A DNA stretch of 64,000 nucleotides from Persicaria tinctoria (taxonomy: Eukaryota > Streptophyta > Magnoliopsida > Caryophyllales > Polygonaceae): contig JBANSL010000004.1 of assembly GCA_037127255.1 (NCBI GenBank), positions 77,466,127 to 77,530,126 of the forward strand, in the 5' to 3' direction. Position 1 is the stretch's first letter; every line of letters starts with the position of its first letter. Below the pieces are notes generated by a model. That model searched no databases and was not told the DNA's origin. It was given only the letters and a program-made list of their open reading frames with translations. The position numbers were made by a program, and so were the translations under genes. Positions 1 through 64,000 of this stretch are shown in pieces.

Positions 1-589
1 CTCGATATCGAGTACACTGGTTTCATCGACTTGGTCTGGCTGGTCTTCTCGGGTAAGTCTTGCTCGATACGGCTCGGTGGTGCTCGGAGGTGGTCCTCGA
101 TATCGAGTAGTTCACTCGATATCGACAAGGTCTGTGCTCGGTGTCTCTCGTCCTCGGCTTCTCGACTCGGCATGGCTCCGAAGCGTGGTCAATATCGAGT
201 AACTTTCCTCGATATCGAGTACGGTGTTGCTCGTCTTCATTTCCTCGATCAGTCTCTACTCGACCAGGCTTGCTCGGCAAAATTGGTGGTCGATATCGAC
301 TAAGGTTGTCGATATCGAGTACCTCCATTTTTAGGTTGGTCCTTCCTGGTTCTGTAGCCTCGGACTCTGCACTTCTGTAGTTGTTTTCCGAGCTTTTCTG
401 ACTCTCCTTTGAACTGTTGTAAAATGCCTCGAATTCTGCAATATTAAACAGAAACTGGTGTAGATTCCATAATTGGGCAAATAAGCATAACTACATAGAT
501 TATGTACTATTCTAGCCCGAAATGCATGATATGTATACAGAAAGCGATATAAAAGTATAAGTAAAACATGGCAGCTTAGGCTTACAATA
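1..589 (-). repeat. 3' LTR of copy 1, partial
   Basis: Positions 1-589 repeat 7069-7656 almost base for base in the same orientation, which identifies a pair of LTRs. The end at 589 is directly followed by the reverse complement of the PPT (AACACCCCATAC). The LTR contains seven TCGATATCGA-type decamers, including the pairs at 97/116, 189/209 and 290/309. The rest of the LTR lies before the window. Confidence 0.9.
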
Positions 590-625
590 AACACCCCATA
601 CTAAAGCTTGCTTGTCCTCAAGCAA
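590..625 (-). promoter_or_regulatory. 3' PPT with upstream stem-loop
   Basis: Read on the minus strand this is TTGCTTG-AGGA-CAAGCAA (608-625), a 7-bp perfect stem with an AGGA loop. It is followed by a purine-rich TAGTATGGGG tract directly before the LTR start. The PPT would prime plus-strand DNA synthesis. The same stem-loop and tract precede the LTR in every other copy in the window. Confidence 0.7.
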
Positions 626-2019
626 TACTTTTAATTGTTATTCAGGGGAAGAAATCAAAACTCTCAACATCTTGGATTCATTGTCATATAACCCTGCAAT
701 CAATTACCATCCTCGAAAAGGTACTAGTGACACAAATCCATGCATGTGCAAATTTACAAAAGCAACATCTACTCACAAAAGGAGGGTTATGCAAACAATT
801 CATTCGTGACAAAGCATTAATAATCAAGAGGACTTTAATTTAGGCTCAATAAGGAGTAGATTGGTAAAAGGCTAATGGTAGGCAATATTTGGCAATGCGG
901 TGCTAATGATCCGGGGAAATGGAGTATTTCGAAACTGAATTTCCACATTCCTTCTCCATAAGATTCATCACCTTTCATAATGCTTTTATCTCAATAATAA
1001 TGCGTTTACCTCTCTAACCTCAGCACTGCCTTCTCGCGAGTCGCAAACATGGGTGTCATGAATGGCCCCAGATACTTAGTGCTTTGGACTCCTCACAATG
1101 TGTCCCATCTCTCCAAACTATTATCTCAGAGAACAAGGTCGATCTACCTTTATTTCCTAAGGTGACCGGATTTTCTTTCACTCATTAAATTTTCCATAAT
1201 TTAAAACAATTTCCTACCAAACTCCAATAATGATAACAACAACATAAACAACCATATAATAATCTCCATAATGTGACATCATTCTCAACATAATCCCCGG
1301 ATAGGAAATAAGGTAAAGAATGGGCAATATTTAGAACATGTGGCGCATATATGAAATAAGGCATAAATATGGCTTTTGTGATGCATAAGCATAGGTAAGG
1401 CTAGGATATAACAACGAGCATTATATGGAAATATAAAGTCCTCCATCATCTTATCATGCAACATGTCAAAAGCAACTTCAAATTTTACCTCCTTTCATGG
1501 TTTTCAAGAAATAATGCACTTCATTGTGACTTCCCTTTACTAGGCAATTTCATGCTATATCTCTAATGAATCCAATTTTGCATTGTCGAGTTCAATATAA
1601 GCTTCCATGACTTTATTTCAAAATTTTCAATGGGGGTCATTTTTCAAATCTTTGGAAAACATGCATATAAGAGCGCATAAATCAGTAATGCATTCCAAAA
1701 TAGCCATGTAGCAATTCAAAGAAATGCACACATAATGTCAAATATGTCAAATATGCATAAAGTAAGCCCTTCCCCCACCCCATACTTAAATATTACAGTG
1801 TCCTCACTGTATAAAAAAATAAGGGTAAAGTAAGAAACTCACTAGACAGGTGTGTAGATCCTCTAAATTTCGAATGGAAGCACCTCCTGGCCGAGTTTGA
1901 ATTTAGCTTGGTTCTATCCATGGACCTGAAAAGTGTAGAAGACATATACCCACAATAGAAAAAACAAAACCAAACAAAAAAACGTCCAAAAAGTCGCTAG
2001 GCCGACTTTTCATTTATGC
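626..2019 (-). other. 3' noncoding region of copy 1
   Basis: This 1.4-kb stretch between the tail ORF and the terminal PPT has no credible reading frame. It is alignable by eye with the matching parts of copy 2 (8936-10402) and of the 46-64 kb array (51,690-52,850). It includes the shared block with the words GGGACAC and CTAAGTATC and a shared GCGACTCGCG word. A second PPT module lies at 1768-1810. Confidence 0.7.
1768..1810 (-). promoter_or_regulatory. Internal PPT module with stem-loop
   Basis: On the minus strand, ACAGTG-AGGA-CACTGT (1795-1810) forms a 6-bp stem with an AGGA loop. It is followed by TTTAAGTATGGGG and a G-rich purine run (1768-1787). This duplicates the layout of the terminal PPT about 1.2 kb away and is conserved in all copies. 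Confidence 0.6.
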
Positions 2020-2994
2020 TCAAGGTGGCATCTGTAGGGCCCATGTAGCTTGGGCCTCAAACATTACTCTGTTCTTGTCCATCAGCTGCAGTCCTCCTGA
2101 ATGGATCTTGTGCACCATGAATGGGCCCATCCTCTTTTTCTTGAACTTGTTGGGGAACCAATGGTCGTGTGATTTGGCAACATAGACCTTGTCTCCAACT
2201 TCATACTCCTTGGGCTCATTCTCGTCAGTGATCCGGCACAGTCGCACATACCAAGGCAGACCTCTCCCATGTATAGATAAATCACTTATGGAAATGGGAG
2301 AAGAGGGATCCATACCTGAGCTTACCTTTGCAGAAACGAGTTCGGGGACCTCCTGCTCTACTCGATATCGACCATCTGTACTCGATATCGAGGAGCCTTT
2401 TGTCTCTGGTGGACTGTTGCTCGAGGATGCTGGTGTCGAGGAAGCAAGGTGTTCGTCGATATCGACCAGTTTGGTCGATATCGAGGAGTTATTCTTGACT
2501 TCCAGTGGGTTGCTCGATGATGCAGGTGAAGTAGAGGACGATAAATGTTGGTCGATATCGACCAGTTTGGTCGATATCGAGGAGTTCCCGGCTTCTGTTT
2601 GGCTGCTCGATGCTGCTGGTGTTGAGGACGCGTGGGCTTGGTCGATATCGAGTAGGGTACTCAATATCGAGTACTGTGGTTCACCTGATGGAATCTGTGT
2701 CGAGGAAGGAGTGGTCGATGTGGCCAACGGGTGGTCGATATCGAGTACAGTACTCGATATCGAGTATGGCTTACCTTTCGTCTGGCTGCTTGATGACGCT
2801 GGTGCTGGTGGAGGTTGCTGATTTTTGTCGATATCGACCAACTTACTCGGTATCGAGTACTGTTGTTCGATATTGACCCCATACTTGCATCCTGTCAAGG
2901 CATCCGCAAAATAATTAGTCCAAATCGACGTACCTTGGTCTGTGTCGAGTGAATCCTCTATCTCTTCATTCAGGATTGCCAAGATTTCCTCCAA
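2020..2994 (-). pseudogene. Tail of gag-protease polyprotein, integrase C-terminus-like
   Basis: This 324-residue frame continues the protease frame after an in-frame TAG at 2995-2997; copy 2 has a glutamine codon at the matching place. Residues about 50-210 are low-complexity Ser/Thr/Pro sequence with LVDID and SISS blocks encoded by TCGATATCGA decamers. The last 70 or so residues contain VGDKVYVAKSHDHWFP and KRMGPFMVHKIHSGGLQLMD. Their spacing matches the GPY/F C-terminal part of Ty3/gypsy integrases (compare the Athila copy near 39,560-39,680). The integrase zinc-binding and catalytic core are absent. I infer a leftover from a larger pol gene; whether the tail has any role is unknown. Confidence 0.6.
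2362..2839. repeat. Paired TCGATATCGA decamers in the tail-coding region
   Basis: Decamers start at 2362/2382, 2456/2475, 2552/2571, 2642/2661 (one mismatch) and 2735/2754, with a further copy near 2829. Within pairs the start-to-start distance is 19-20 bp. The pair at 2735/2754, with its spacer, forms a nearly perfect palindrome of about 30 bp. Confidence 0.9.
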
Positions 2995-4560
2995 CTATGC
3001 TTCCACTTCCCTTTTCTCCACTTCTTCAGGAGTCATATTTCTTACCTTAGGCTCCCCACAAGTAATATAACCAGCAGAAATAGACTTTACCTCTTCCATG
3101 GGGCCAATGTGTCTACCAGTTTTATTAAAGGAGTATTCAATTACCTCATCGCTAATGTTGAAAGTGAGTACTCCCTTCCCTACGCTTATATTGGCATCCA
3201 CTGTTGCCAAGAAAGGCCTTCCTAGAATAATTGGACAAGCAGGGTCCTCCGCCATATCAATTATTAAGAAATCAGCAGAGACAAAGAACTTACCTACCTG
3301 TACTGGGACGTTGTCCACCATACCTGTTGGGATGACTACTGTATTGTTCGCCATATAAAGTCTAGCATCCACAGGTTCTAGGGCACCTATCTTTGTCTTG
3401 GACCAAATTGATAAAGGCATTATACTTACGCTTGCTCCAAGATCACATAAAGCATTAAACTTATATTGACCAAATCTAATAGTTATAGAGAACTTACTTG
3501 GATCTGGCCTCTTTTTTGATATGTCCAATTGGCTGCACTTCTCTGCGATCTCAGCCATCGATCGCTTTTTGCTCAGGATCTCCTTTAATAACTTGACATA
3601 TGATGGCATCTCATGAAGTACTTCTGTGAAGGGCAGAGTGACGTTCAACTTTTGTAGCATCTTCACGAACCATTGAAACTTCTTTTCCGTTGGGTCCTTT
3701 AGAGATTTTGTGGGGAAAGGCAGCTTCTTTTTCTGATTCGGCGCCAGAACAAATGTCGGAGGTGCAGCAGATTTCTCGACGTCGACTTGGGGTTCCTCGA
3801 TATCAAGTACACCTTTGTCGATATCGACCAGATTGGGTGATGTCGAGTTGTTGTGCTGTGCAGACGAAGGTTGGCCTATTCCGTCTTCGATATCGAGGAG
3901 ACCTTTCTCGATATCGAGTTGCCTTTTGTCGATATCGACTAAGGTCTGGTCGATATCGAGTTGCTGTTCTCCTCCGTTTTGCTGCTTTCCGACTTCTGGC
4001 TCTTGCAGTTGATAGCCACTTCTGAGTTTTACTGCAGCTACATGTCTAGAAGATTTACCCTTAGGGTTAGGTTCAGAAGATCCAGGGAGCGTACCTGATT
4101 GTTTGGGTACTCCGGCTGCTATCTGGCTGATTTGAGTTTCCATGGTTTTTCGCCAGATATCTATTTCTCCTAGCCTAGAGTTGACACCATACAACTGAGT
4201 GTGGATGGAATTGATGGATTGCTTAGTGTCCGAATGATTCCTCCGCATCTCCTCAAGTATGGTCTGCATGTCATATTTCTTACCCTCTCTGTCATGATGA
4301 CCAGGTGCTCTGTAAGGTGGGGGATTTTGTTGCTGGGGCTGGCGATAATAGCTCCAGTTCTGGTTCTGGTGTGGCCCTGAGTAGTACCCCCCTGCATACC
4401 TTACCTCTTCGTGGGTTTCTGCTTGCTGTACTTGATCCACGTATGGGCATGCAGTAGTATTGTGCCTAACAGATCCACATTCCAAACAAGGTTGATTTTT
4501 AGATAAGAATTTGACTTGTTTGGTTAGACAACGTACCTGATCATTCTTGAATTGGTCCTT
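2995..4560 (-). pseudogene. Zinc knuckle and retropepsin (protease) of copy 1
   Basis: The 496-residue open part (2995-4485) begins in a CCHC zinc knuckle of the form CX2CX4HX4C (ECGSVRHNTTAC visible). A proline/glutamine-rich linker follows, then LDID-type repeats at about residues 176-230. The aspartic protease has DLGAS at residues 348-352 and IILGRPF at about 419-425. DLGAS in place of DTGA is usual for Athila-type proteases. The protease would cleave the Gag polyprotein in the particle. The frame is shifted relative to gag by a single-base lesion near 4552-4562 and ends in TAG at 2995-2997. Confidence 0.8.
3798..3959. repeat. TCGATATCGA decamer cluster in the Gag-protease linker
   Basis: Six decamers, one with a mismatch, lie in this 160-bp stretch, spaced about 19-22 bp within groups. 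They encode LDIE, VDID and LDID in the linker between the zinc knuckle and the protease. The same linker position carries decamers in the 46-64 kb copies and a different phased repeat in the Athila element. Confidence 0.85.
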
Positions 4561-5534
4561 GCTGGCACATACAAGGGCATAGATGGGGCAGGCCTTTCAT
4601 ACCTTTCATCTGAGGCGGCCGCAGAAGTCCCATAGGTGTTGTCATAATTTGCTAGAGTCTCAAACACCTCCCAAGCACGGCATGGAGTATATCCCAAATA
4701 TTCGTAGTTGGTGTAGTTGTTGATCTTTTCCTTAGTGTGTGCATCCAGGCAGTTGAAGATGATTTCCTGGATGACATAGGGTGATTGGCCATGTGTAGGG
4801 CAGGATTTCAGAAGCCTTTTGTAGCGCTCCCAGACTTGTGCTAGCGGTTCCCCTGACTTTTGCCTAAAAGCCGTGATTTGCTGTCTGAGAGCGGATGTCT
4901 TTGCCGACGGAAAGAACTTATTCAAGAACAGGTCTTGTAGCTCATTCCATGTGCGAATAGATCGTGCAGGCAATCCTTCCAGCCATTGTTGAGCAACCCC
5001 TGCAAGAGACCAACGGAAAGCCTTTAGTTTTAGATATTCAAGATTTGCACCATCAGCTATTGCTTCACATAGATCAATAAAAGTGGTGACATGTTTTAAA
5101 GGGCATTCATTAATTTCCCCCCTAAATTGATTCCTTCTGATTTCAGTAATAAAAGAAGGGCGAATTTCATAATTAATAGCAGGGAGAATGATCGCTGATT
5201 CTGGGACTTCCAGAGTAGGATGTAGATACTCCCTGGCGTTGGCAGGGACGTGTCCTGCTCGATCTTCCAGCTCCCTTCTTGCATTGATCTCGCGATCAAT
5301 TCTGGCTTCCCACTGTTGTTGGTTTCGTGCATATTCCGCCTCTCGTCGGGCGTGTTCCGCTTCTCTAGTGGTGAAGGCCTCAACTTGCTGACGGGGGCGC
5401 TCAAGCTCCTGTTCTGGTGTGAGTGGGGCCTCATTCTCGTTGACTTGTGACATCTTCCTTAGTCTTTGTCGAAGGTGGAAGTATCGCTCAGGCTCGAGAA
5501 TAGGGTCTATAGGTGTGCGATCAGTTCTTCGCAT
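4524..5534 (-). pseudogene. Gag (capsid) protein of copy 1
   Basis: I chose the start at 5534 (MRRTDR) because the 46-64 kb copies begin with MRRTG after an equivalent leader. The N-terminal third is charged and probably coiled coil, rich in Glu, Arg and Gln. The retrotransposon Gag domain follows, with LKAFRWSLAG, QWLEGLP, FLNKFFP, ALRQQITAFRQ and WERYKRLLKSCP. This protein would form the cytoplasmic virus-like particle. The frame fails near 4552-4562, where a one-base change moves it out of register with the zinc knuckle and it terminates at 4524. Confidence 0.8.
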
Positions 5535-5625
5535 ACACCTGAAAAGCAAAAATTAAAAAAGCAAGTAAAAAGGAACTAAAAAGTAAAAAGAAATAAAAGA
5601 ACTAAAAAGGGCGCGATTGATAGCT

Positions 5626-5643
5626 TCCCTGGCAACGGTGCCA
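5626..5643 (-). promoter_or_regulatory. Primer-binding site, tRNA-Asp(GTC)
   Basis: The minus strand reads TGGCACCGTTGCCAGGGA. It matches the complement of the 3' end of plant tRNA-Asp(GTC), TGGCGCCGTTGCCGGGGA, at 16 of 18 positions, and lies four bases after the 5' LTR. Both mismatches are G to A, as expected from decay of methylated cytosine on the other strand. Confidence 0.85.
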
Positions 5644-5647
5644 ATTT

Positions 5648-7656
5648 TGTTGTTGCAGGAGTAAGTCAAGTAATAAAAATATAAATTTAAACCAACTTCT
5701 TGTCCCAGCAAATAAATACAAGACTTCCTCCCGTTGTAGTAAAAGCAAGTCAGGATCGAATCCACGAGGAAGCGTGTCAGCGCCCGCCTTTTCAGTTCCT
5801 AAATCTCAGAATAATGCAGAAAAGCAAAACAGAAACAACGAAGCAAAAAGCAGAAAACAAAGCAAAGCAAGAACCTACTCGATATCGACAAAGGGGTGGT
5901 CGATATCGACTACAGCAGTGATCGACAGAAAATCCAGAAAGCCAAAACACACTGTATCGAGCAAAATGGTACTCGATATCGAGTACAGACAACTCGATAT
6001 CGACTAAAAACTGCTCGACGTCGACAACAACAGTAAACTAAAAATTCGCAACTCGAACCCCAAAAACGCAGAATTTCGTAAATAAATTCAATAAACTAAA
6101 ATGCTTCCAAGGCTAGGGCATCAATACCACAACGATAACCATGCAAAACAACACATAAAGGCATAAATAATCGTGCTTTCGTTACCAACAAATAGGAATA
6201 TAGAGGCTTTCGCATAAACCCTAATTGTTTCTAACCCTTTTCACATAATTAATCCAAGTTGTATTAAATTCACTTTCGCTTCAATAACACAAACAAGAAT
6301 CACCTTCAACTTTCGCAAAAGAATCATGCTCGCAAGGATAGAAGACGAATTTGCATAAAAAGATCAAAACTTTCTTGCACCGCCTCGCATGGCCACCATT
6401 GGGCTCACCCCGACCCTAGAAGTTGGTGGACTACTCGCGCTTCATCATCATTAAACTCATCAAATAACAAAAGAAATAAACTTGCATTGAATGAAATAAA
6501 GAAAGCTTACAACCAACAAGACAAATCCACTTTCGCCTTTCCACCTTGCTTGCCACAAACTTTCTCTCTCAACTCCTACTTACTTGAATGAAATTGTGTC
6601 TGAATGAAGATTGAATGCTAAATTGAATTGTGATGATAAAAAACTAAGGCCTTAGGCCTTATTTATAGCCTTCTAATCCTTGCTAATCAAGGGTAGAAAC
6701 ATCTATCTATATCTAAAATTATATCTAAAAGCTTAAAAGATAAATAAATGCAATTTAGGAATTAAATCTAAAAGGGAAAAGATAAATCTAAATAGGTATG
6801 TCTTCATGTGTTGATAGATCTTCCTTCCATAGATAGAACTTGATGTATTTGGATAGATCTCGGCCAACTCGACTTCCATCACGTCCAAGGAATCCCAACT
6901 CGACTAGGACTGATCACGTCGGTGCGTTTTCAGAAAACTGGGCTACTCGATATCGACCATGGGCTAGTCGATATCGACTAGGATTCGTCGTCGATTAATC
7001 TTCTCGAGTGACTTTGCTCGACATGGACTCGGATTGGCCACATGGTTTACTCAATACCGACAAGGGTACTCGATATCGAGTACACTGGCTTCATCGACTT
7101 GGTCTGGCTGGTCTTCTCGGGTAAGTCTTGCTCGATACGGCTCGGTGGTGCTCGGAGGTGGTCCTCGATATCGAGTAGTTCACTCGATATCGACAAGGTC
7201 TGTGCTCAGTGTCTCTCGTCCTCGGCTTCTCGACTCGGAATGGCTCCGAAACGTGGTCGATATCGAGTAAATTTCCTCGATATCGAGTACGGTGTTGCTC
7301 GTATTCATTTCCTCGATCAGTCTCTACTCGACCAGGCTTGCTCGGCAAAATTGGTGGTCGATATCGACTAAGGTTGTTGATATCGAGTACCTCCATTTTT
7401 AGCTTGGTCCTTCCTGGTTCTGTAGCCTCGGACTCTGGACTTCTGTAGTTGTTTTCCGAGCTTTTCTGACTCTCCTTTGAACTGCTATAAAATGCCTCGA
7501 ATTCTACAATATTAAACAGAAACTGGTGTAGATTCCATAATTGGGCAAATAAGCATAACTACATAGATTCTGTACTATTCTAGCCCGAAATGCATGATAT
7601 GTATACAAAAAGCGATATAAAAGTATAAGTAAAACATGGAAGATTAGGCTTGCAAC
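5648..7656 (-). repeat. 5' LTR of copy 1
   Basis: This 2.0-kb LTR starts TGTTGCAAGCC on the minus strand at 7656 and ends CAACAACA at 5648. The TGTTG...CAACA ends form a short inverted repeat. It holds decamer pairs at about 5880/5901, 5973/5994 and 6949/6970, and a cluster at 7069-7387. It contains a TATA box and is followed by the PBS. Confidence 0.88.
6660..6667 (-). promoter_or_regulatory. LTR TATA box
   Basis: TATAAATA on the minus strand, in the context GGCTATAAATAAGGCC. The same context occurs at the same relative place in all LTRs of this family, so it is the probable core promoter. The overlapping AATAAG resembles a polyadenylation signal. Confidence 0.6.
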
Positions 7657-8935
7657 ATCATCCCAACAGGTATGGTGGACAATGTCCCAGTGCAGGTAGG
7701 TAAGTTCTTTGTCCCTGCTGATTTCTTAATAATTGATATGGCGGAGGACCCTGCTTGTCCAATTATTCTAGGAAGGCCTTTCTTGGCAATAGTGGATGCC
7801 AATATAAGCATAAGGAAGGGAGTACTCACTTTCAACATCAGCGATGAGGTAATTGAATACTCCTTTAATAAAACTAGTAGGCACATTGGCCCCATGGAAG
7901 AGGTAAAATCTATATCTATTGGTTATATTACTTGTGGGGAGCCTAAGGTAAGAAATATGACTCCTGAGGAATTGGAGAAAAGGGAAGAGGAAGCGCAGGT
8001 GGAGGCAATATTGGCAATCCTGAACGAAGAGACAGAGGATCCACTCGACACAGACCAAGGTACGTCGATTTGGACTAATTATTTTTCGGATGCCTTGACA
8101 GGATGCAAATATGGGGTCAATATCGAACAACAGTGCTTGATATCGAGCAAGTTGGTCGACATCGACCAGAATCAGCAGCCTCCACCAGCACCCGCGTCGT
8201 CGAGCAGTCAGACGGGAAGTACGCAGTACTCGATATCGACCACCCATCAGCCACCTCGACCAGACCTTCCTCGACACAGATTTCATCAGGTGAGCCACAA
8301 TACTCGATATCGAGTACCCTACTCGATATCGACCAAGCCCAGGCGTCCTCGACACCAGCAGCATCGAGCAGTCAAACAGAAGCCGGGAACTCCTCGATAT
8401 CGACCAATTTGGTCGATATCGACCAACACTTGTCGTCCTCGACTTCACCTTCATCGTTGAGCAAGCCACTGGAAGTCGAGAAGAACTGGTCGATATCGAC
8501 GAACACCCTGCTTCCTCGACTCCAGCAGCATCGAGCAGCAGTCCACCGGAGACAGAAGGCTCCTCGATATCGAGTACCACTAGTTGATATCGATTAGAGC
8601 AGGAGGTCCCCGAACCCGTTTCTACAAAGGTAAGCTCAGGTATGGATCTTTCTTCTCCCATTTCCATAAGTGATTTATCTATACATGGGAGAGGTCTGCC
8701 TTGGTATGTGCGACTGTGCTGGATCACTGACGATAATGAGCCCAAGGAGTATGAAGTTGGAGACAAGGTCTATGTTGCCAAGTCACACGACCACTGGTTC
8801 CCCAACAAGTTCAAGAAGAAGAGGATGGGCCCATTCACGGTGCAAAAGATCCATTTAGGAGGTCTGCAGCTGATGGACAAGAATGGAGTGGTTTTTGAAG
8901 CCCAGACCACATGGGCCCTGCAAATGCCACCTTGA
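7657..8935 (+). pseudogene. Protease C-terminus and integrase-like tail of copy 2
   Basis: Frame 1 opens with the second half of the protease (FLIIDMAEDPACPIILGRPF) and runs into the tail. The decamer-rich linker between about 8,200 and 8,600 is read in shifting frames: frame 1 to 8460, another frame from 8103 to 8597, and a third from 8642 to 8935. Small indels must therefore have occurred in or beside the decamers. The last part repeats the GDKVYVAKSHDHWFP and KRMGPF tail of copy 1. It cannot make a single protein. Confidence 0.75.
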
Positions 8936-10402
8936 GCTAAAGAGAAAGTCGGCCTAGCGACTTTAAAATCTAGAGCTTGTAAATAGACATTTATTTTTGG
9001 GACTTTTGGACTTTGTTGCTTTTGTTTGTTTTTTTTTTTGGAACTTTTAGTTTTTCTATTGTGGGTATATATCTTCTACACTTTTCAGGTCCATGGATGG
9101 AAGTAAGCTATATTCAGACTCGGCCCAGGCGATTCTTTCATTCAACATTAAGAGGCTCTGCACACCTGTCTAGTGAGTTTCTTTCTTTACCCTTGTTTTT
9201 ACACAGTGAGGACACTGTAATGTTTAAGTATGGGGTGGGGGAAGGGCTTACTTCATGCATATTGACCATATTTGACATTATGTGTGCATATTTGGAATGC
9301 GTTTCTTTAAATTTCTACATGGCTATTTTGGAATGCATTATTAATTTATGTACTTACATGCATGTTTCAAAAAAAGTTTATAAAAATGACCCCCATTGAA
9401 AATTTTGATAAATGTCATGGAAGCTTACATTGAACTCGACGATGCAAAATTGGATTCATTAGAGATATAGCATGAAATTGCCTAGTAAAGGGAAGTTACA
9501 ATGAAGTGCATATTTTCTTGAAAACCATGAAAGGAGGTAAAATTGAAGTTGCTTTTGACATGTTGCATGATAAGAGGATGGAGGACTTTATATTTACATA
9601 TAATACTCATATTGTTATATTCCTAGCCTTACCTATGCTTATGCACCACAAAAGCCATAATATGCCTTATTTCAATTATTGCTCCACATGTTCTAAATAT
9701 TTACCATTCTTTACCTTATTTCCATCCGGGGATTATGTTGAGAATGATGTTATATTATGGAGATTATTATATGGTGATTGTGTTGTTGTTATCATTATTG
9801 GAGTTTGGCGGGAAATTGTTTGAAATTATGGAAAATTTAATGAGTGAAAGAAAATCCAATCACCTCAGGAGATAAAGGTAGATTGACCCTGCTCTCTGAG
9901 ATAATAGTTTGGAGAGATGGGACACCAAAGTGAGGAGTCCAAAGCACTAAGTATCCGGGGCCATTCATGACACTCATGTTTGCGACTCGCGGGAAGGCAG
10001 TGCTGAGGTTAGAGAGGTAAAAGCATTATTATTGAGAAAAAAAAGCATTATGAAAGGTGATGAATCAAATAAAGAATGGATGTGGAAATTCAGTTTGGAA
10101 AAACTCCATTTCCCCGGATCAAAAGCACCACATTGCCAAAAATTGCCCACCCTTTAGCCTTTTACCAATCTACTCCTTATTGAGCTTAATTAAAGTCCTC
10201 TTGATTATTGTTGCTTTGTCACGAATGAATTGTTTGCATAACCCTCCTTTTGTGAGTAGATATTGCTTTTATATATTTGCACATGCATGAATTTGTGACA
10301 TTAGTACCTTTTCGAGGATGGTAATTGATTGCAGGGATATATGAGAATGAATCCAACATGTTGAGAGTTTTGATTTCTTCCCCTGAATGACAATTAAAGG
10401 TA
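8936..10402 (+). other. 3' noncoding region of copy 2
   Basis: No credible coding frame. It starts with a GTCGGCCTAGCGACTTTAAA word shared with the 51 kb and 57 kb copies, contains a pyrimidine-rich stretch near 9,015-9,060, and then the internal PPT module. The remaining 1.15 kb is conserved with copy 1 and with the second subgroup. Confidence 0.7.
9203..9246 (+). promoter_or_regulatory. Internal PPT module with stem-loop
   Basis: ACAGTG-AGGA-CACTGT (9203-9218) is followed by AAGTATGGGGTGGGGGAAGG (from 9226). The layout is the same as the terminal PPT at 10403-10438. Confidence 0.6.
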
Positions 10403-10438
10403 TTGCTTGAGGACAAGCAAGCTTAAGTATGGGGTGTT
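10403..10438 (+). promoter_or_regulatory. 3' PPT with upstream stem-loop
   Basis: TTGCTTG-AGGA-CAAGCAA (10403-10420), then TTAAGTATGGGGTGTT directly before the LTR start TGTTGTGAGC at 10439. Confidence 0.7.
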
Positions 10439-17558: not shown

Positions 17559-17742
17559 AAAGATTTTTAAGAACCACAAATTGCTCATTTGGATAAACAA
17601 AAAACCTAATGAATCCCAATTATTAATTGAAGAGACCTAAGTATCCTTACAAAGATTTTTAAGAACCACAAATTGCTCATTTGGATTAAAAAAAAAACCT
17701 AATGAATCCCAGTTATTAATTAAAGAGATCTAAGTATCCTTG
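17559..17742. repeat. Tandem duplication of a 92-bp unit
   Basis: 17559-17650 and 17651-17742 are near-identical units starting AAAGATTTTTAAGAACCACA. They differ by an A-tract length change and a few substitutions. Confidence 0.85.
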
Positions 17743-41930: not shown

Positions 41931-41978
41931 TGAGTCTTTCTGTTTCCTTTCTCCCTACTTATTTATGTCTTCTTTCAC

Positions 41979-42565: not shown

Positions 42566-42603
42566 TTACTCGGGACGAGTAAAGGTTTAAGTATGGGGGA
42601 ATT
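42566..42603 (+). promoter_or_regulatory. 3' PPT with upstream stem-loop
   Basis: TTACTCG-GGA-CGAGTAA (42566-42582), then TTTAAGTATGGGGGAATT directly before the LTR start at 42604. Confidence 0.72.
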
Positions 42604-43849: not shown

Positions 43850-43854
43850 GCTAT

Positions 43855-48810: not shown

Positions 48811-48814
48811 AAAT

Positions 48815-48832
48815 TGGTGCCGTTGTCGGGGA
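48815..48832 (+). promoter_or_regulatory. Primer-binding site, decayed, tRNA-Asp
   Basis: TGGTGCCGTTGTCGGGGA differs from the tRNA-Asp complement by two C-to-T changes; units B and C have the perfect site. Confidence 0.85.
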
Positions 48833-48894
48833 AGCTATCATTCGCGCCTTAGGTAGTTAATTCTCACGTCTACTTTGAGTTACTTTTCAGGTGT

Positions 48895-52852: not shown

Positions 52853-52888
52853 TTGCTTGAGGACAAGCAAGCTTAAGTATGGGGTGTT
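52853..52888 (+). promoter_or_regulatory. 3' PPT with upstream stem-loop, unit A
   Basis: TTGCTTG-AGGA-CAAGCAA, then TTAAGTATGGGGTGTT before LTR 2. Confidence 0.7.
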
Positions 52889-54927: not shown

Positions 54928-54931
54928 AAAT

Positions 54932-54949
54932 TGGCGCCGTTGCCGGGGA
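54932..54949 (+). promoter_or_regulatory. Primer-binding site, tRNA-Asp(GTC)
   Basis: Perfect 18-base match, TGGCGCCGTTGCCGGGGA, four bases after LTR 2. Confidence 0.92.
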
Positions 54950-55011
54950 AGCTATCATTCGCGCCTTAGGTAGTTAATTCTCACGTCTACTTTGAGTTAC
55001 TTTTCAGGTGT

Positions 55012-57561
55012 ATGCGCCGTACTGGTATTCCACCTGAGTATTACGGTTTAGACGAACCAGAGCGCCTTCTACACGTCAGGACTAGACTCCAAAGAGCCAT
55101 GGCGGACGCTGAAACACAAGAGCAGCTGGTCGCTGGGCTGACAAAGGAATTGGCCGATAAAGATGCTGCTATCGCCACTGAGAAAGCAGCAAGGGAGCAA
55201 GCAGAAGCTGAGCTTGCCCGATATCCAACTACTGCAGAGGATTATATGCATCCGACTCTCGTCGTGCCTGAATCGGCGATTCTAATCCCTTAAAACTCTT
55301 TTGAAATTCGCACTCAGTTTCTTATAGAGCTTAAAAATAATGCCTTTTATGGCAGATTTAATGAGTGTCATCTTGAACATATTACGAACTTTTCTGACAT
55401 GTGCCGTACTCTTGCTGAAGGTACAACATTGGAATATGTCAAGATGAAAGCTTTTCGCTGGTCTCTCGCTGGACCTGCACTGAAATGGCTGGAAGGGCTG
55501 AAACCAAGATCCCTCACCACATGGGCCCAAGTAGAACAAGAGTTCCTGAACAAATTCTTCCCACCGGCCAAAATAGCACATCTCCGCCAGAGAATCACCG
55601 CCTTCAAACAGAAGCAAGGGGAACCGCTGGCAAAGGCATGGGAGCGCTACAAGGAACTTCAGAGATCTTGCCCTACTCATGGACAGCCACCCTATGTCAT
55701 TCAAGAGATTTTCTTCAACTCTCTTGATCAAGTCACCAAGGACAGAATCAACCATTATACTCGCTATGAGTATCTGACAATGCCGCCGGGTGACGCATGG
55801 GGAGTACTGGAAAAGCTCACCAACTATGACAACAAATATGGGGCTACTTCAAACTATGAGGAGAACTCCTACGCCAGGCCAGCACCATCTATGCCACTTT
55901 ATGAGCCAGCAAAGGAGATTGACCCAGATGTCAGGGAGCAGTTCTACAGAGATCAGAATCGCAAGCTCCTCAAGCAAGTCAAATATCTGTCTGTCAACCA
56001 GCCTTGCATCGAATGCGGATCACAGAGGCACACCACTACTGAGTGCCCACACACAGAGCAAGTAAGGATGGCAGAAACACATGAGGAGGCAGCATATGCT
56101 GGGGGTCCAAAACGCTACAACGGAGATCAAAGGTTCTATCAACCACAGTGGAACCAAGGTCCTCCTAGGAATCCCCCACCCTACAGAGCTCCAGGGCATC
56201 CAGAAAGGGATCAAAAGAAGGATGATCTGCAGCTGATCCTTGAGGAGATGCAACGAAATCAGGGCACCATCAACAACCAATTCTAGAACATCACCACCAA
56301 ATTTGGAGAGTTGGACATCTGGAAGAGGGGAATTGAGACTCAGATGGGACAGATCGCTGCACAGATCCCACGACCGGCCGGAAAGCTCCCTGGGCAAACA
56401 GAACCCTATCCTAAGGGGCAAACTGGACATGTCGCAGCTATCAAACTAAGGAGTGGGCATCAATTACACAAGCCAGAGGTCGGAAAACAGCAAAGCGACG
56501 CAGAGCAGCAACTCGAGACAGAGCAGAGCCAACTCGATCTCGAGGAGCCAAACTCGACCTCGACAAGGACCGTACTCGACACAGACCAGAAGTTGAGCTC
56601 GGACTCCACCTCGCAGACCAGCAACCCGAGGTCCACTACCCAACTCGAGGTCGACAAGCCCTTGGTCGATGTCGACAAGCCTGTGGTCGAGATCGAGGAG
56701 CCTTTGGCCGACGTCGACGAGTCTGCAGCACTTTCGACAGCTAATCTGGCTTCGAAACAGAAAAATCCACTACCTTTCCCTTCTAAAACTCTTAAAGATC
56801 CCACTTCTGGTAGATTCAATAGATTTGTTAATATGTTGCAAGAGCTAAACTTTTCTATTCCTTTTACAGAAGCCTTGCAAGAGATGCCTGGATATGTCAA
56901 GTTTCTAAAGGAAATCCTGAGCAAGAAGCGATCTATCTCAGAGATCGCAGGCGAATGCAAAGTACTCCACTTCCCTGAAAAGAGGCCTGACCCAGGTAAG
57001 TTTTCTGTCACTGTGGGTTTTGGACAATATAAATATGATTCTCTATGCGATTTAGGAGCAAGTGTGAGCATCATGCCTTTATCAATCTGGCGGAAAGTAA
57101 AAATAGGATGCATAGAACCTGTGGATGCTAAATTATATATGGCAAATAATACAGTAGTCATCCCTACAGGAATAGTTGAAAATGTTCCAGTCCAGGTTGG
57201 AAAATTCTTTGTGCCAGCTGATTTCCTTATTATTGATTGTGCTGAAGATCCTACTAGCCCTATTATCCTTGGTAGACCATTCTTAGCTACTGCAGATGCC
57301 AGGATTAGTGTTAAGAATCGATCGCTCACCTTCACCATAGGCGATGAGGTTTTGGATTTCTCTTTTGGCCCTGCAAAGGAGGAGATTTCTTGGCTGGAGG
57401 TGAAAAGCATCAGCATCGACGGGACTAAGCAAACAGCGGAGGACGGAGCGAAAACTGTACTCGAGGTTGACAAGCCTTACTCGACCTCGACAAGCACCCT
57501 CCTCGACATCGACAAGACCTCGTCGATCTCGATCACCACCACAGAGCCTGAGACTTTCTAG
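55012..57561 (+). pseudogene. gag-protease polyprotein of unit B
   Basis: One frame of 850 codons with two in-frame stops, TAA at 55291-55293 (shared by A and C) and TAG at 56284-56286 (CAG in unit C). In order: an alanine-rich charged N-terminus (residues 30-75); the Gag domain with MKAFRWSLAGPALKWLEG, FLNKFFPP and WERYKELQRSCPTHG; a CCHC knuckle (CIECGSQRHTTTEC); a decamer-encoded linker (LDLEEPNSTSTRT, then DVDKPVVEIEEP); the protease with DLGASVSIMPLSIW and IILGRPFLATADAR; and a decamer-encoded C-terminus. RT, RNase H and integrase are absent. Confidence 0.88.
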
Positions 57562-59610
57562 GAGCCTAAGTATGGGGTCCCTGTACTCGACCTCGACCAC
57601 CTGTACTCGACATCGAGTAGCCCCAAGCCCAAAAATTTCTGTTTTGGGTCCGAACAGGTAAGTGCAGGTATGGATTCTACTCCCCCTCAGTCCATAAATA
57701 AAAATTCTAATGATATGAAGGGAGCAAAAACACCGTGGCGAGAAAATTTGCAGAAACTGAAGGCTACAAGGAAGAAAACGAAGGAGAAAGGAGATGATGC
57801 AAGCAACCCCTTATCAGCTGAGCTTGCATACTACCATCAGGACCTCGATGATCCAGGAGAAGGGCCAGGCATGAGTGAGCCCCACAAAAATGGTCCTTGA
57901 GCGCAAACGGAGAAGTCGGCCTAGCGACTCTAAAATCTAGAGCGTGTATATAAAACTTTATGAACTTTTGGACAGTTTACTTTGTTTGGTTTTGGTTTTT
58001 GGTTTTCGTTTTTTTTTTTTTTTTTGGTTTCATGTCTTTTTAAGAACTTCATATGGATAGTCTTGTTTTTGGTATGGAATCTAACAATTGTAGGTCGGCA
58101 AGCATAAAAGGCTCGCGAAAAGTGGAGAAAGAAGTCCCTGAAAACCAATCAAAATCGACGAAGGCCAAGTCGACGACGATGAAGAGGAGAAGCCCAGACA
58201 CTGGTCGACCTCGAGTAGACGTACTCGACCTCGACAAGCACCAGGAACTCCTCGACTTCTGATTTCACTGGACGCAGACGAAGCTACTCGACATCGAGTA
58301 AGGGGTACTCGATATCGACAAGCACCTACTCGACCTAGCCCAGTCTTGTCCTCCTCGACATGATCTAGTGAGTTTCTTTTTCTACCCTTACCTTGTTTTT
58401 TTATACAGTGGGGACACTGTAATGTTTAAGTATGGGGTGGGGGAAGGGCTTACATTGTGCATATTTGATTTATTTATATTTGACATATATGCATTATTTC
58501 TTAGAATTGCTACATGGCTATTTTTGGAAAGCATTATTTGATTTATATGCTTTATATGCATGAATTTCCATAAGTCTTGAAAAATGACCCCCATTGAAAA
58601 TTTTGGAAAAATTTTGGAATAATGTCATGGAAGCTTTAATTGAACTCGACGATGCAAAATTGGATTCATTAGAGATATAGCATGAAATTGCCTAGTAAAG
58701 GGAAGTCACAATGAAGTGCATATTTTCATGAAAACCATAAAAGGAGGTAAAATTTGAAGTTGCTTTTGACATGTTGCATGATAAGATGATGGAGGACTTT
58801 ATATTTCCATATAATGCTCATTGTTGAAATCCTAGCCATACCTATGCTTATATGCATCGCAAAAGCCATAATATGCCTTATTTCAAATATTGCTCCACAT
58901 GATCTAAATATTGCCATTCTTTACCTTATCCGGGGATTATGATGAGAATGATGTTACATTATGGAGATATTATATGGTGTATGTGATTATTATCATTATT
59001 GGAATTTGGAAGGAAATTGTTTGAAATATATGGAAAATTTAATGAGTGAAAGAAAATCCAATCACCTCAGGAGATAAAGGTAGATTGACCCTGCTCTCTG
59101 AGATAATAGTTTGGAGAGATGGGACACATTGTGAGGAGTCCGAAGCACTAAGTATCCGGGGCCATTCATGACACCCATGTTTGCGACTCGCGAGAAGGCA
59201 TTGCTGAGGTTAGAGAGGTAAAAGCATTATTATTGAGAAAAGCAATATGAAAGGTGACGAATTATATGGAGAAAGAATGTGGAATGAAACTCAAAGTCTG
59301 GAAAGTACTCTATTTCCCCGGATCATAAAAGCACCACATTGCCAGAAATTGCCCACCTTTTAGCCTTTTACCAATCTACTCCTTCATGAGCTTTAATTAA
59401 AGTCTTCTTGATTGTCAATGCTTTGTCACATAAAAATTGTTTGTACATAACCCTCCTTTTATGAGTAGATGTTGCTTTTACATATTTGCACATGCATGAA
59501 TCTGTGACACTAGTACCTTTTCGAGGATGGTAATTGATTGCAGGGTTATATAAGAATGAATCTAAGATGTTGAGAGTTTGAATTCTTCCCCTGAATGACA
59601 AATAAAAGTA
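57562..59610 (+). other. 3' noncoding region of unit B
   Basis: Colinear with unit A. It contains the 76-codon relic frame at 57670-57900, paired decamers at 58209/58229 and 58287/58308, and the conserved block between the two PPT modules. Confidence 0.65.
58405..58448 (+). promoter_or_regulatory. Internal PPT module with stem-loop, unit B
   Basis: ACAGTG-GGGA-CACTGT (58405-58420), then AAGTATGGGGTGGGGGAAGG. Confidence 0.6.
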
Positions 59611-59646
59611 TTGCTTGAGGACAAGCAAGCTTAAGTATGGGGTGTT
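59611..59646 (+). promoter_or_regulatory. 3' PPT with upstream stem-loop, unit B
   Basis: TTGCTTG-AGGA-CAAGCAA (59611-59628), then TTAAGTATGGGGTGTT before LTR 3. Confidence 0.7.
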
Positions 59647-61686
59647 TGTTGTGAGCGGAATCTGCCATGTTTTACAGCAACTTTTATATCGATTTCTGTA
59701 TACATTTCATACAATCGGGCTAAGATAGTACAGAATCTGTGCAATTAATGTTTATTTGCCAAAATTATGGAATCTACACCAGTTTCTGTTTAATTCGCAG
59801 AAATCGAGGCGTTTACAGCAATTCTACAGAAGGTCGGAAAAGCTCGGAAAACCACTACAGAAGTCCAAGGTCAAAGCAGCGGAACAAGTCTGAGAGCAAA
59901 GTCTACTCGATCTCGAGTAGTCTTACTCGACATAGACCAGCAGGCCTGGTCGACAGACCATGGTCGAGAGAGCTAGACACCCAGCTCCGGGACCCAACTC
60001 GATCTCGACGAAGCCTGGTCGAGATCGACGAAGCCCAGACAGACCACCCGTAGTCGATGAGGAGAAGCTGCCCGAGAAGCCGAGGACGAAGCCGAGGACG
60101 ATCAGGAGGACTCGCTGCCGCGGAAAGGACCACTCGCTGCCGCGGAAGAGGCCACTCGCTGCCAGCGGACAGACCAACTCGAGAAGACCTAGTCGGCAAA
60201 CCTTACTCGAGGTCGACTAGGCCTTGTCGAGGTCGACGAGCGCCTGAGTCCAGATCCGAGCATGTCGAGCACACCAACCCGAGAATTCAAGTCGACGGAG
60301 CCACCCTACTCGATGTCGACAAGAGCTACTCGACATCGACAAGACCTGTGAGCCAGAGTCCGAGCCCGTCGAGCAGAGAAGCCAGCCAACCAAAGTCGAG
60401 AGCCCAAGCCAACTCGAGGTCGACAAGACCTACTCGAGGTCGAGTAGACCTGGGTTCCAGAAGATTCTCGACGAGCCTTGTCCGAGTAGAATTGGAGTTC
60501 CTTGAGCGCGAAGGAATAAAAGTCTATCCGATTCCATCAAGTTCTATCATCAAGGAGAAAAGATCTATCAAGACATGAAGACCTATCTATTTAGTTTTAT
60601 CTTTTCCTAGTTGATTTAATTCCATTATGTCTTTTATTTATCTTTTAAACATTTTAGATATAGATAGATATCTTCTTTCCTAGATTAGCTAGGGAATGCA
60701 GGCTATAAATAAAGCCCTAGGGGCTCAGTTTTAATAATTCAATTTCAGAACAAGACAAGTAGTTACAAGGAGAAGTTTAGGGAGTTCGAAGGTTTTAGGG
60801 TTTTGGCAGTTTGCGAAAGTTGATTGCCGGGATTGTAAAATCATTAAATTTAGTTTATGCAAGTGTTTTCTTTTCATCAATCAATGTATGAGTTTGCAAT
60901 GAGGCGTGAGTAGTCAACCCACTTCTAGGGTTGGGGCGAGCCCGACGATAGCCATGCATAATTGAGGTAAAGATCGAACCTTTATCATGTTTGGAGCATT
61001 TTCCTACTTGTTGATGTGTTTATTGCCCATCTAATGGAGATCCCTGCTAACAACTCGGATTATAAACATAAAATCGGTAGAGACAATTAGGGTTTCTTGA
61101 GAGAGTTGTCTAATTGTTGGAAAAGGCGAGAGCTTAATCCTTTAATGCGAATTATATGATAATCTGTTTGGTTCCACCTTATGCATGCTTGGTTAATCGT
61201 TGTTGCAAAACCCAATCTTGGAAGTCCTTTTACATACAGTTTAGTTCGAAACCCCGAAAAGCATTTGTTCTTTATTTTCTGTTCGTTTTTATTCCCTGTC
61301 TTACTCGACCTCGACTACCTCTAGTCGATCTCGAGTACACTGATTCTCGACCTAGCAGTCGCTGTTGCTTAAGTGTGCAGGAATCGACGAGCCTTACTCG
61401 ATCTCGAGTAGCTCTGGTCGAGATCGACTACCCTTGGTCGACCTGTGCTGCTGTGTTCGACAAGTCTGAGCTTCTGTCGACAACCCCTTTGTCGAGCTCG
61501 AGGACCCCTGTAGTCGACTTCTGTCCGTGAGATTCGTCTGCTACCTAGGATCCGCTGACCAGCTTCTTCGTGGATCGATCCTGACTTCCGCTGCTACATC
61601 AGGAGGAGGTCTTGTATTTATTTTGCGTAGGCATAGTCTGGTTTGAATTATACTTTATATTTTGAACTCGATTTCCTCCTACAACA
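59647..61686 (+). repeat. LTR 3 of the tandem array
   Basis: 2,040 bp. One base longer than LTR 2 (an extra A in TTGGTTAATCG near 61,195). Confidence 0.93.
60704..60711 (+). promoter_or_regulatory. LTR TATA box
   Basis: TATAAATA, same context as in the other LTRs. Confidence 0.6.
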
Positions 61687-61690
61687 AAAT

Positions 61691-61708
61691 TGGCGCCGTT
61701 GCCGGGGA
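61691..61708 (+). promoter_or_regulatory. Primer-binding site, tRNA-Asp(GTC)
   Basis: Perfect 18-base match to the tRNA-Asp complement after LTR 3. Confidence 0.92.
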
Positions 61709-61770
61709 AGCTATCATTCGCGCCTTAGGTAGTTAATTCTCACGTCTACTTTGAGTTACTTTTCAGGTGT

Positions 61771-63990
61771 ATGCGTCGTACTTGTATTCCACCTGAGTAT
61801 TATGGTTTAGACGAACCAGAGCGCCTTCTACACGTCAGGACTAGACTCCAAAGAGCCATGGCGGACGCTGAAACACAAGAGCAGCTGGTCGCTGGGCTGA
61901 CAAAGGAATTGGCCGATAAAGATGCTGCTATCGCCACTGAGAAAGCAGCAAGGGAGCAAGCAGAAGCTGAGCTTGCCCGATATCCAACTACTGCAGAGGA
62001 TTATATGCATCCGACTCTCGTCGTGCCTGAATCGGCGATTCTAATCCCTTAAAACTCTTTTGAAATTCGCACTCAGTTTCTTATAGAGCTTAAAAATAAT
62101 GCCTTTTATGGCAGATTTAATGAGTGTCCTCTTGAACATATTACGAACTTTTCTGACATGTGCCGTACTCTTGCTGAAGGTACAACATTGGAATATGTCA
62201 AGATGAAAGCTTTTCGCTGGTCTCTCGCTGGACCTGCACTGAAATGGCTGGAAGGGCTGAAACCAAGATCCCTCACCACATGGGCCCAAGTAGAACAAGA
62301 GTTCCTGAACAAATTCTTCCCACCGGCCAAAATAGCACATCTCCGCCAGAGAATCACCGCCTTCAAACAGAAGCAAGGGGAACCGCTGGCAAAGGCATGG
62401 GAGCGCTACAAGGAACTTCAGAGATCTTGCCCTACTCATGGACAGCCACCCTATGTCATTCAAGAGATTTTCTTCAACTCTCTTGATCAAGTCACCAAGG
62501 ACAGAATCAACCATTATACTCGCTATGAGTATCTGACAATGCCGCCGGGTGACGCATGGGGAGTACTGGAAAAGCTCACCAACTATGACAACAAATATGG
62601 GGCTACTTCAAACTATGAGGAGAACTCCTACGCCAGGCCAGCACCATCTATGCCACTTTATGAGCCAGCAAAGGAGATTGACCCAGATGTCAGGGAGCAG
62701 TTCTACAGAGATAAGAATCGCAAGCTCCTCAAGCAAGTCAAATATCTGTCTGTCAACCAGCCTTGCATCGAATGCGGATCACAGAGGCACACCACTACTG
62801 AGTGCCCACACACAGAGCAAGTAAGGATGGCAGAAACACATGAGGAGGCAGCATATGATGGGGGTCCAAAACGCTACAACGGAGATCAAAGGTTCTATCA
62901 ACCACAGTGGAACCAAGGTCCTCCTAGGAATCCCCCACCCTACAGAGCTCCAGGGCATCCAGAAAGGGATCAAAAGAAGGATGATCTGCAGCTGATCCTT
63001 GAGGAGATGCAACAAAATCAGGGCACCATCAACAACCAATTCCAGAACATCACCACCAAATTTGGAGAGTTGGACATCTGGAAGAGGGGAATTGAGACTC
63101 AGATGGGACAGATCGCTGCACAGATCCCACGACCGGCCGGAAAGCTCCCTGGGCAAACAGAACCCAATCCTAAGGGGCAAACTGGACATGTCGCAGCTAT
63201 CAAACTAAGGAGTGGGCATCAATTACACAAGCCAGAGGTCGGAAAACAGCAAAGCGACGCAGAGCAGCAACTCGAGACAGAGCAGAGCCAACTCGATCTC
63301 GAGGAGCCAAACTCGACCTCGACAAGGACCGTACTCGACACAGACCAGAAGTTGAGCTCGGACTCCACCTCGCAGACCAGCAACCCGAGGTCCACTACCC
63401 AACTCGAGGTCGACAAGCCCTTGGTCGATGTCGACAAGCCTGTGGTCGAGATCGAGGAGCCTTTGGCCGACGTCGACGAGTCTGCAGCACTTTCGACAGC
63501 TAATCTGGCTTCGAAACAGAAAAATCCACTACCTTTCCCTTCTAAAACTCTTAAAGATCCCACTTCTGGTAGATTCAATAGATTTGTTAATATGTTGCAA
63601 GAGCTAAACTTTTCTATTCCTTTTACAGAAGCCTTGCAAGAGATGCCTGGATATGTCAAGTTTCTAAAGGAAATCCTGAGCAAGAAGCGATCTATCTCAG
63701 AGATCGCAGGCGAATGCAAAGTACTCCACTTCCCTGAAAAGAGGCCTGACCCAGGTAAGTTTTCTGTCACTGTGGGTTTTGGACAATATAAATATGATTC
63801 TCTATGCGATTTAGGAGCAAGTGTTAGCATCATGCCTTTATCAATCTGGCGGAAAGTAAAAATAGGATGCATAGAACCTGTGGATGCTAAATTATATATG
63901 GCAAATAATACAGTAGTCATCCCTACAGGAATAGTTGAAAATGTTCCAGTCCAGGTTGGAAAATTCTTTGTGCCAGCTGATTTCCTTATT
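61771..63990 (+). pseudogene. gag-protease of unit C, partial
   Basis: Same frame as unit B with the shared TAA (62050-62052), but open from there to the window end: the second stop of unit B is CAG here. The Gag domain, CCHC knuckle, decamer linker and protease DLGAS are present. Homology to unit B protease ends at about 63990. Confidence 0.85.
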
Positions 63991-64000
63991 TTCTGTTCGT
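63986..64000 (+). other. Junction of protease sequence with LTR-like sequence
   Basis: Unit B continues TTCCTTATTATTGATTG. Unit C continues TTCCTTATTTTCTGTTCGT, and TTATTTTCTGTTCGT is an LTR word (54513-54527). A deletion through a short TTATT microhomology into the next LTR is the simplest reading, but only about ten diagnostic bases are visible. Confidence 0.45.

Follow-up and report, generated by a model that had tools for sequence, protein, structure and literature searches.

Organization of the locus

The window analysed here is the whole 64,000-nucleotide stretch of Persicaria tinctoria DNA at positions 77,466,127 to 77,530,126 of contig JBANSL010000004.1 (forward strand, assembly GCA_037127255.1). 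It contains an Athila block bearing reverse transcriptase (RT) at 26553-45598 and two groups of RT-less long terminal repeat (LTR) elements, group 1 at 1-13.4 kb and group 2 at 46.8-64 kb, which have gag, a protease-like domain and arrays of the decamer TCGANNTCGA, two TCGA half-sites around a two-base core. These arrays are the subject of this study. A tblastn search (E 1e-5) with the proteins of the window's own Athila found RT, integrase and ORF1 absent from both groups, and none of RT, RNase H, integrase core and ATHILA ORF1 was found in them; of the integrase, group 1 retains only a tail that resembles its C-terminus. Their gag matches to PF03732 are above the curated cut-off (E 6.1e-17 at 55294-56286 and 7.8e-17 at 4524-5552), and their protease matches to PF13650 are both weak and below it (E 2.6e-4 and 1.7e-3); PF13650 is present in many of the relatives obtained by protein search. 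The LTRs start with TGTTGTGAGC and are about 2.0-2.2 kb long. The primer-binding site (PBS) with GGCGCCGTTGCC at 54933 and 61692 is the same as that of the Athila element at 34136, and in one group-1 copy it reads GGCACCGTTGCC. Judged by gag and PBS type, the RT-less elements are probably non-autonomous derivatives of the Athila lineage. Non-autonomous LTR elements of the TR-GAG type carry gag without RT; relative to this usual definition, the present elements keep a protease-like domain and have, in addition, the phased arrays and a tail that resembles an integrase C-terminus.

Group 2 consists of units that repeat in tandem about every 6.76 kb and are 98-99% alike, so that they are not independent copies; the first unit carries a deletion of about 0.63 kb. 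A second array, with a period near 6.67 kb, lies at C1:1.796-1.82 Mb. The arrangement can be followed in unit B (plus strand). Its LTR (52889-54927, TGTTGTGAGC...ACAACA) contains an upstream cluster of 9 decamers (53149-53685), a TATA box GGCTATAAATAAAGC near LTR +1057 and a downstream cluster of 5 decamers (54546-54742). It is followed by the PBS TGGCGCCGTTGCC... (54932-54949, common to the Athila element), a gag open reading frame (ORF; 55294-56286) with zero decamers, and a putative protease ORF (56287-57561) in which no RT was found. Further arrays occupy the gag-protease linker (56534-56696), the region after the protease (57481-57616) and, as pairs, the 3' untranslated part (58205-58318). 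Units A and C repeat this arrangement on the same strand: in unit A the LTR clusters lie at 47023-47559 and 48429-48625, the linker array at 49776-49938, the post-protease array at 50723-50858 and the 3' pairs at 51447-51560; in unit C the LTR clusters lie at 59907-60443 and 61305-61501 and the linker array at 63293-63455.

On the minus strand of group 1 are an LTR piece (2-318; decamers at 2, 97, 116, 209, 290 and 309), a post-protease linker array (2362-2837), a gag-protease linker array (3776-3959) and the downstream (5879-6024) and upstream (6947-7367) LTR clusters. The plus-strand copy has a post-protease linker array (8156-8573), LTR clusters upstream (10731-11266) and downstream (12198-12321) of the TATA box, and a gag-protease linker array (12803-12852). 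Overall, the LTR clusters stand at about +260 to +817 and +1630 to +1880, and in three LTRs the conserved TATA box, near +1057 to +1117, lies between them.

Abundance and phasing of the decamers

The window holds 136 exact copies of TCGANNTCGA: 61 in 1-13436, 74 in 46763-64000 and one elsewhere, at 23016. The RT-bearing Athila block has zero. The initial annotation had placed well over 50 in the RT-less groups, where we count 135, and had judged them to be beyond chance. First-order Markov simulations of the same stretches (100 runs) agree with this judgement, giving a mean of 0.23 and a maximum of 3 for the 61 decamers of group 1, and a mean of 0.14 and a maximum of 2 for the 28 decamers of one group-2 unit. 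We also sampled 20 stretches of 10 kb at round coordinates on six contigs. Decamers were present in 8 of them (77 copies in total), a few without the motif flanks described below (stretch L005 and part of L006); sequence resembling groups 1 and 2 made up 14,718 of the 200,000 sampled bases, nearly half of it in stretch L022.

Consecutive decamers less than 60 bp apart in the window are separated by 19 (10 cases), 20 (34), 21 (16), 22 (2) or 42 bp (1). The same spacing dominates the single genome searched, the 1.68 Gb host assembly, in which exact patterns were counted against reversed-pattern controls: 50,365 pairs lie at 19 bp, 110,830 at 20 bp and 61,022 at 21 bp (controls 0, 4 and 68), against 28,128 for all spacings of 22-40 bp pooled (control 920), a pool whose listed part contains 22-bp pairs and triplets spanning two steps. 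The 19-21 bp peak noted in the window is thus present genome-wide as well. In fifteen sampled stretches (L006 without its first 4 kb) we counted 27, 44, 19 and 4 pairs at 19, 20, 21 and 22 bp, and zero pairs at 15-18 or 23-29 bp.

Pairing is the rule, as had been noted: 176 of the 222 decamers surveyed in 14 stretches have an exact partner at 19-22 bp. Among the other 46, a partner with one mismatch was found for 31 and with at most two mismatches for 38, compared with 4 of 46 at control offsets of 25-28 bp. These decayed partners differ mostly by C>T or G>A at CpG (23 of the 31 single mismatches). Two of the pairs first listed in the window are of this inexact kind, while most are exact: position 189 reads TCAATATCGA, a one-mismatch partner of 209, and position 47043 reads TCGACATAGA, an inexact partner of 47023. 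Pairs themselves recur at intervals of about 93 and 104 bp, or roughly nine and ten helical turns; taken together, the distances (n = 450, not independent of one another) show a period near 10.25 bp (R = 0.37).

Anatomy of the paired site

Alignment of the decamers revealed a flank consensus with T at -3 (82-93%) and C or G at -1 (100%) on one side, and C or G at +10 (96-97%) and A at +12 (93-100%) on the other. Over 214 decamers the half-site reads W-N-S-TCGA-B, position -3 being T in 88% and A in 9%, and the inner base being A in only 4%. The decamer is therefore an inverted repeat of two half-sites, and the 19-21 bp between the decamers of a pair correspond to about two helical turns. The core is TA in 52 of the 61 group-1 decamers, so that the TA core ascribed to this group leaves 9 exceptions; in group 2 the cores are mixed, as described. 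Core types vary by subfamily (TA, TC/GA, CG), and the half-site differs between families.

The two decamers of a pair are related. Their cores are reverse complements in 26 of 67 non-TA pairs (10.7 in shuffles), and core complementarity within 92 pairs also exceeds shuffles (63 against 42.3; 57 against 30.7). Complementarity is slightly raised at the inner S bases (54 of 92 against 44.5, p 0.027) and does not exceed shuffles at the inner positions beyond them in these 92 pairs. At the outer S bases the letter is identical in 72 of 94 sampled pairs, and these bases are complementary in only 17 of 92 pairs (duplicates removed), against 43.7 in shuffles. Genome-wide, 37,174 C..C and 36,871 G..G pairs account for 74,045 of the 110,830 pairs at 20 bp. 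Each pair therefore has a polarity. The arrangement TCGATCTCGA-N10-TCGAGATCGA occurs 22,118 times (control 0).

Half-sites are conserved within rapidly diverging surroundings

Conservation was measured on 12 diverged copies compared in all directions, using high-scoring segment pairs (HSPs) no shorter than 150 bp and no more than 93% identical, from which non-collinear HSPs were dropped; 90 directed comparisons gave HSPs, each copy pair being counted twice. Half-sites are 96.0% identical (2724/2838), against a background of 84.1% (87532/104111). They are the most conserved position class among those measured, ahead of lone TCGA (89.3%), T at -3 (88.4%), A at +3 (87.3%), control 4-mers (83.6%), other CpGs (74.2%), S positions (70-76%), the core (61.5%) and the ten flanking bases (60.0%). 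The excess conservation of TCGA over its flanks that the initial annotation had asked for is thus seen across copies. It holds against the background in 45 of the 46 comparisons with at least 24 half-site bases, and against other CpGs in 46. The sole exception is L016 against L027 (0.84 and 0.86). At 1 to 5 bp from the decamer, identity is 0.74, 0.60, 0.88, 0.55 and 0.48, and beyond 80 bp it is 0.82-0.88, showing that the near surroundings of the decamer diverge faster than the rest of the element. In near orthologues (HSPs of 86-93% identity), for which orthology is safest, half-sites are identical at 119 of 122 positions, positions 4-5 at 44 of 59 and the background at 9379 of 10140.

The substitutions that do occur next to the half-sites are mostly C<>G and A<>T. 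C<>G exchanges make up 80 of the 96 changes seen at S positions (6% in the background), and A<>T exchanges 28 of the 48 seen at position 3 (21% in the background). Such swaps look alike from the minor groove, which points to a mixed readout through the major and minor grooves.

Selection acts on the DNA. The arrays avoid the gag and protease domains and are located in linkers, in the 3' untranslated part and in the LTR; selection at the DNA level follows from this distribution, since the LTR and 3' sites are non-coding and the linker sites are translated in more than one frame. A selected peptide repeat was considered and ruled out, since the same decamer is translated as SIS, DID or RYR in open frames (as in the array at 2362-2837) and occurs in LTRs and 3' untranslated parts. 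The C>T and G>A decay of partners suggests that resident copies are CG-methylated, and conservation would then be enforced in the copies that replicate.

A second half-site alphabet in Athila

We scanned the 16 self-complementary tetramers at gaps of 0-8 in 24 stretches, with thresholds of at least 5 copies and an 8-fold excess. Phasing near 20 bp was found only for TCGA-N2 and CGCG-N2 (with the overlapping GCGC); the remaining matches were AT-rich repeats and one short-period AGCT repeat. The CGCG design belongs to the RT-bearing Athila block, which contains 28 of the 29 window copies of CGCGNNCGCG; they lie in LTRs and linkers, and 14 of their spacings measure 20-23 bp. On the minus strand are a pair at 27556-27585, an array at 29945-30103 and a pair at 31989-32019. 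On the plus strand there are pairs upstream of the PBS (33057-33194), an array in the gag-protease linker (35605-35698), an array with 21-bp spacing between the RNase H and integrase domains (38350-38422), pairs between pol and ORF1 (40315-40434) and sites in the repeat of 32884-34128 (42776-42913). Two diverged Athila copies, forming one copy pair with two HSPs, showed identity at 82 of 84 half-site positions, 115 of 161 positions in the ten flanking bases, 5192 of 5672 background positions, 318 of 360 CpG positions and 21 of 22 core positions, a conservation signature similar to that of the TCGA arrays. Genome-wide, CGCGNNCGCG pairs at 20-21 bp number 7,594. GCGC was tried as the Athila half-site and rejected: GCGCNNGCGC pairs (2,621) are outnumbered by CGCGNNCGCG pairs, so that CGCG is the better description.

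Not every Athila element has such arrays. A second one, on C5, has neither TCGA nor CGCG arrays, and contains one lone TCGA decamer without the T..A flanks. It forms part of a three-level nest (C5:24992001-25019000; L029, L022, L028) in which a TCGA element lies in the Athila, itself in an older TCGA element. The LTRs of the innermost element are 97.4% identical over 1,837 columns and 94.6% over 352 more; the outermost has a CG core in 9 of 18 decamers. Two candidates for an RT-bearing TCGA element (C4:45.0 Mb and C3:45.0 Mb) were seen to lie next to TCGA elements without belonging to them.

Other repeats were noted in passing. GTCG recurs every 12 bp, with 100 occurrences across four of the sampled stretches (L007, L012, L014 and L016). 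In one relative on a short JGI contig (P0039), peptides of GPTDPPWSV type are repeated after the protease and may represent another array alphabet. Between the elements, the window contains short CG-rich direct repeats of ACCCGA type (22727-23121) and two-copy tandem repeats of 93 and 115 bp (17559-17741 and 23901-24125).

An orphan module downstream of the protease

Group-1-type elements keep a 93-amino-acid module after the post-protease array, at 2023-2301 (minus strand) and 8654-8932 (plus strand) in the window and at L022:3356-3631 (+) and L027:3166-3441 (-) outside it. In ten comparisons of five copies, second codon positions show 0-4 changes per 92-93 codons and third positions 10-30, a pattern of purifying selection on the module, although the L016 copy is interrupted by a stop codon in frame. 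By profile comparison, the centre of the module is similar to the C-terminal part of the integrase of the window's Athila (hhalign E 1.5e-5, 41 columns, probability 79.5). The structural model has five strands at low confidence (predicted local distance difference test score 57) and gave no PDB match at E <= 0.001, the best being 1.2. We therefore dropped the module as a solved fold, and the profile match to the integrase C-terminus alone stands. A search of group-2 unit B (58.4 kb and upstream) did not find the module, so it is dispensable in some copies. Among 4 candidate relatives elsewhere one match (P0001) was obtained, with tail peptides that, at the protein level, are compatible with phased sites. 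The module is a candidate reader of the arrays, nothing more.

Comparison with known systems

The arrays seem closest in function to the target arrays of VANC in Arabidopsis VANDAL elements, and in form to the palindromic boxes of Sireviruses. PMC5735166 describes VANC, a DUF1985 protein, as acting on short, family-specific motifs in dynamic tandem repeats, with an effect throughout the transposable element (TE). PMC5735166 and PMC10398659 further describe a spreading loss of methylation and a proposed arms race with RNA-directed DNA methylation. The likeness extends to a motif repeated within one TE family in dynamic tandem arrays, to related families with different motifs and to fast-diverging surroundings. 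In contrast to VANDAL elements, the present ones are LTR retrotransposons rather than DNA transposons, and their arrays also lie in coding linkers. Unlike the VANC motif, given there as YAGTATTAY, their sites are self-complementary CpG half-sites in helically phased pairs. No DUF1985 Pfam match was present in the scanned ORFs, and no RT-bearing partner, a possible source of such a gene, was found.

Sirevirus RM boxes, as presented in the part of PMC2829016 considered, are likewise palindromic CpG boxes of high copy number in the LTR of Ty1/copia elements, upstream of TATA and with extra internal boxes; the box of Tnd-1, one of 13, is ACAATCGATTGT, with TCGA at its centre. They differ in being single copia boxes mostly with a CGG-CCG core, and no 19-21 bp pairing is described in that part of the text. 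The present arrays, in contrast, are associated with gypsy/Athila-type gag and PBS and have double half-sites in phased pairs; they also have a second LTR cluster downstream of TATA, and further sites occupy the gag-protease linker as well as the 3' untranslated part. CACTA (En/Spm) elements offer a further parallel, since they carry many short TNPA sites for an element-encoded binder, motif and protein both diversifying (PMC2613891); the binder in our case is putative. However, TNPA sites belong to the subterminal regions of a DNA transposon and are required for its excision, and the terminal inverted repeats and tnpA of CACTA elements contrast with the LTRs, PBS and gag of the present elements.

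The initial claim that no plant element with this design had been described is too strong in kind, Sirevirus boxes and VANC arrays being related. The exact TCGA design was not found in a literature search that covered few subscription journals, and searches with the motif words TCGATATCGA, TCGANNTCGA, TCGATCTCGA and TCGAGATCGA gave no plant-element paper by title among the matches listed.

The paired decamers as candidate operator sites

We favour, with a probability of roughly 0.6, the reading that the paired TCGA decamers act as operators, bound by a multimeric protein dedicated to them, which would keep the elements expressed or unsilenced. Binding by a multimeric factor is likely; the function in anti-silencing or activation is what we infer. 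A site for a dimeric or tetrameric factor, as suggested from the window, is the best fit to hyperconserved half-sites beside a variable core and spacer, to two-turn phasing and to selection at the DNA level in both coding and non-coding stretches. A dimer would read each decamer: every base of TCGA from the major groove, and the flanking S and W bases through the minor groove. Two dimers on the same helix face would make a tetramer per pair, and the many pairs per element would allow cooperative, family-specific loading. In the manner of VANC on VANDAL elements, this loading would counteract silencing or activate the LTR promoter, and the CGCG alphabet of the neighbouring Athila family would be a second factor specificity.

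Several observations weigh against this reading. The domain scan of the ORFs returned gag, protease, pol and ATHILA matches only, with no VANC-like domain and no binder, and the role may lie in anti-silencing or at the promoter. No RT-bearing element with TCGA decamers was found: the candidates on C4 and C3 are neighbours of TCGA elements, and the Athila host on C5 has no such arrays. The array units share ancestry, so the shuffle p-values overstate their independence, and array alignments may pair non-orthologous units. In near orthologues the conservation effect is smaller, although the same in kind, and 30 of 32 core positions are identical. The core is therefore not variable there, and the initial description of fixed half-sites with a free core and spacer applies to the diverged copies and not to the core of near orthologues. 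Finally, when all tetramers were scanned across the 20 stretches, TCGA-N2 ranked only seventh (19.5-fold enrichment, 8 stretches), the tetramers above it being tandem repeats confined to 1-4 stretches.

Ordinary enhancer arrays, through which a host transcription factor would drive the LTR promoter with neither an element-encoded factor nor anti-silencing, would suit the clusters on both sides of the TATA box; such a role has been suggested for the Sirevirus boxes, up to 32 per element (PMC2829016), which show a comparable promoter arrangement. Yet linkers and the 3' untranslated part, both remote from the promoter, contain sites as well, another Athila element has no such sites, and a shared host factor leaves unexplained why two families of one genome have different half-sites; we hold this explanation to be rather unlikely. 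A hairpin in RNA or single-stranded DNA, in which the decamers of a pair fold into a 10-bp stem acting in the element RNA, would explain the raised complementarity of cores and inner S bases and the abundance of TCGATCTCGA-N10-TCGAGATCGA. Small RNAs have also been linked to Sirevirus palindrome clusters (PMC10760457). Such a stem is nevertheless improbable, since its outer closing pair is avoided, most 20-bp pairs genome-wide having non-complementary C..C or G..G; complementarity is not in excess further in, the spacing tracks the turns of DNA, and sites also lie in the LTR upstream of the TATA box.

Tandem duplication has contributed to the arrays: the second-order spacings near 93 and 104 bp, together with 68.8% self-similarity in one array, indicate duplicated units of about 100 bp. 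The slippage origin that the initial annotation offered as an alternative is therefore right in that duplication aids array growth. As a full account, in which duplication and slippage spread a functionless CpG-rich unit, it leaves conserved half-sites in hypervariable flanks unexplained. Under it, half-sites and spacers should decay alike and CpGs should be lost faster, the reverse of what is observed, and the half-sites stay constant though the spacers vary between 19 and 21 bp; moreover, the CGCG arrays repeat the pattern in another family. We give this account little credence. The symmetric CpG in each half-site, and the C>T and G>A decay of partners, could also speak for a scaffold of spaced CpGs kept for host methyl readers or for the CG methylation machinery. 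For that, however, CG alone would suffice, yet T, A, the flanking S and the W at position 3 are kept while other CpGs decay freely, and we consider a methyl-CpG scaffold very improbable.

The operator reading could be extended, tentatively and with rather low confidence, to the whole lineage. Athila-lineage elements may have evolved their own anti-silencing code of phased, self-complementary CpG half-sites (TCGA, CGCG), each served by its own TE-encoded tetrameric factor; the RT-less elements would parasitize this code, the orphan integrase C-terminal module would be its likely reader, and the spacers would diversify under small-RNA attack.

Significance

A single plant genome thus contains more than 220,000 exact site pairs of one geometry, selected at the DNA level, in elements without an RT of their own. 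The geometry itself (half-site, 20-bp phase and S/W flanks) makes the question directly testable. If the favoured reading is true, a natural and addressable DNA-binding specificity would be on offer, and sequence-specific counter-silencing of the VANC kind would extend from DNA transposons to LTR retrotransposons. As operators of an anti-silencing or activation factor, the arrays would show how non-autonomous retrotransposons fill a genome.

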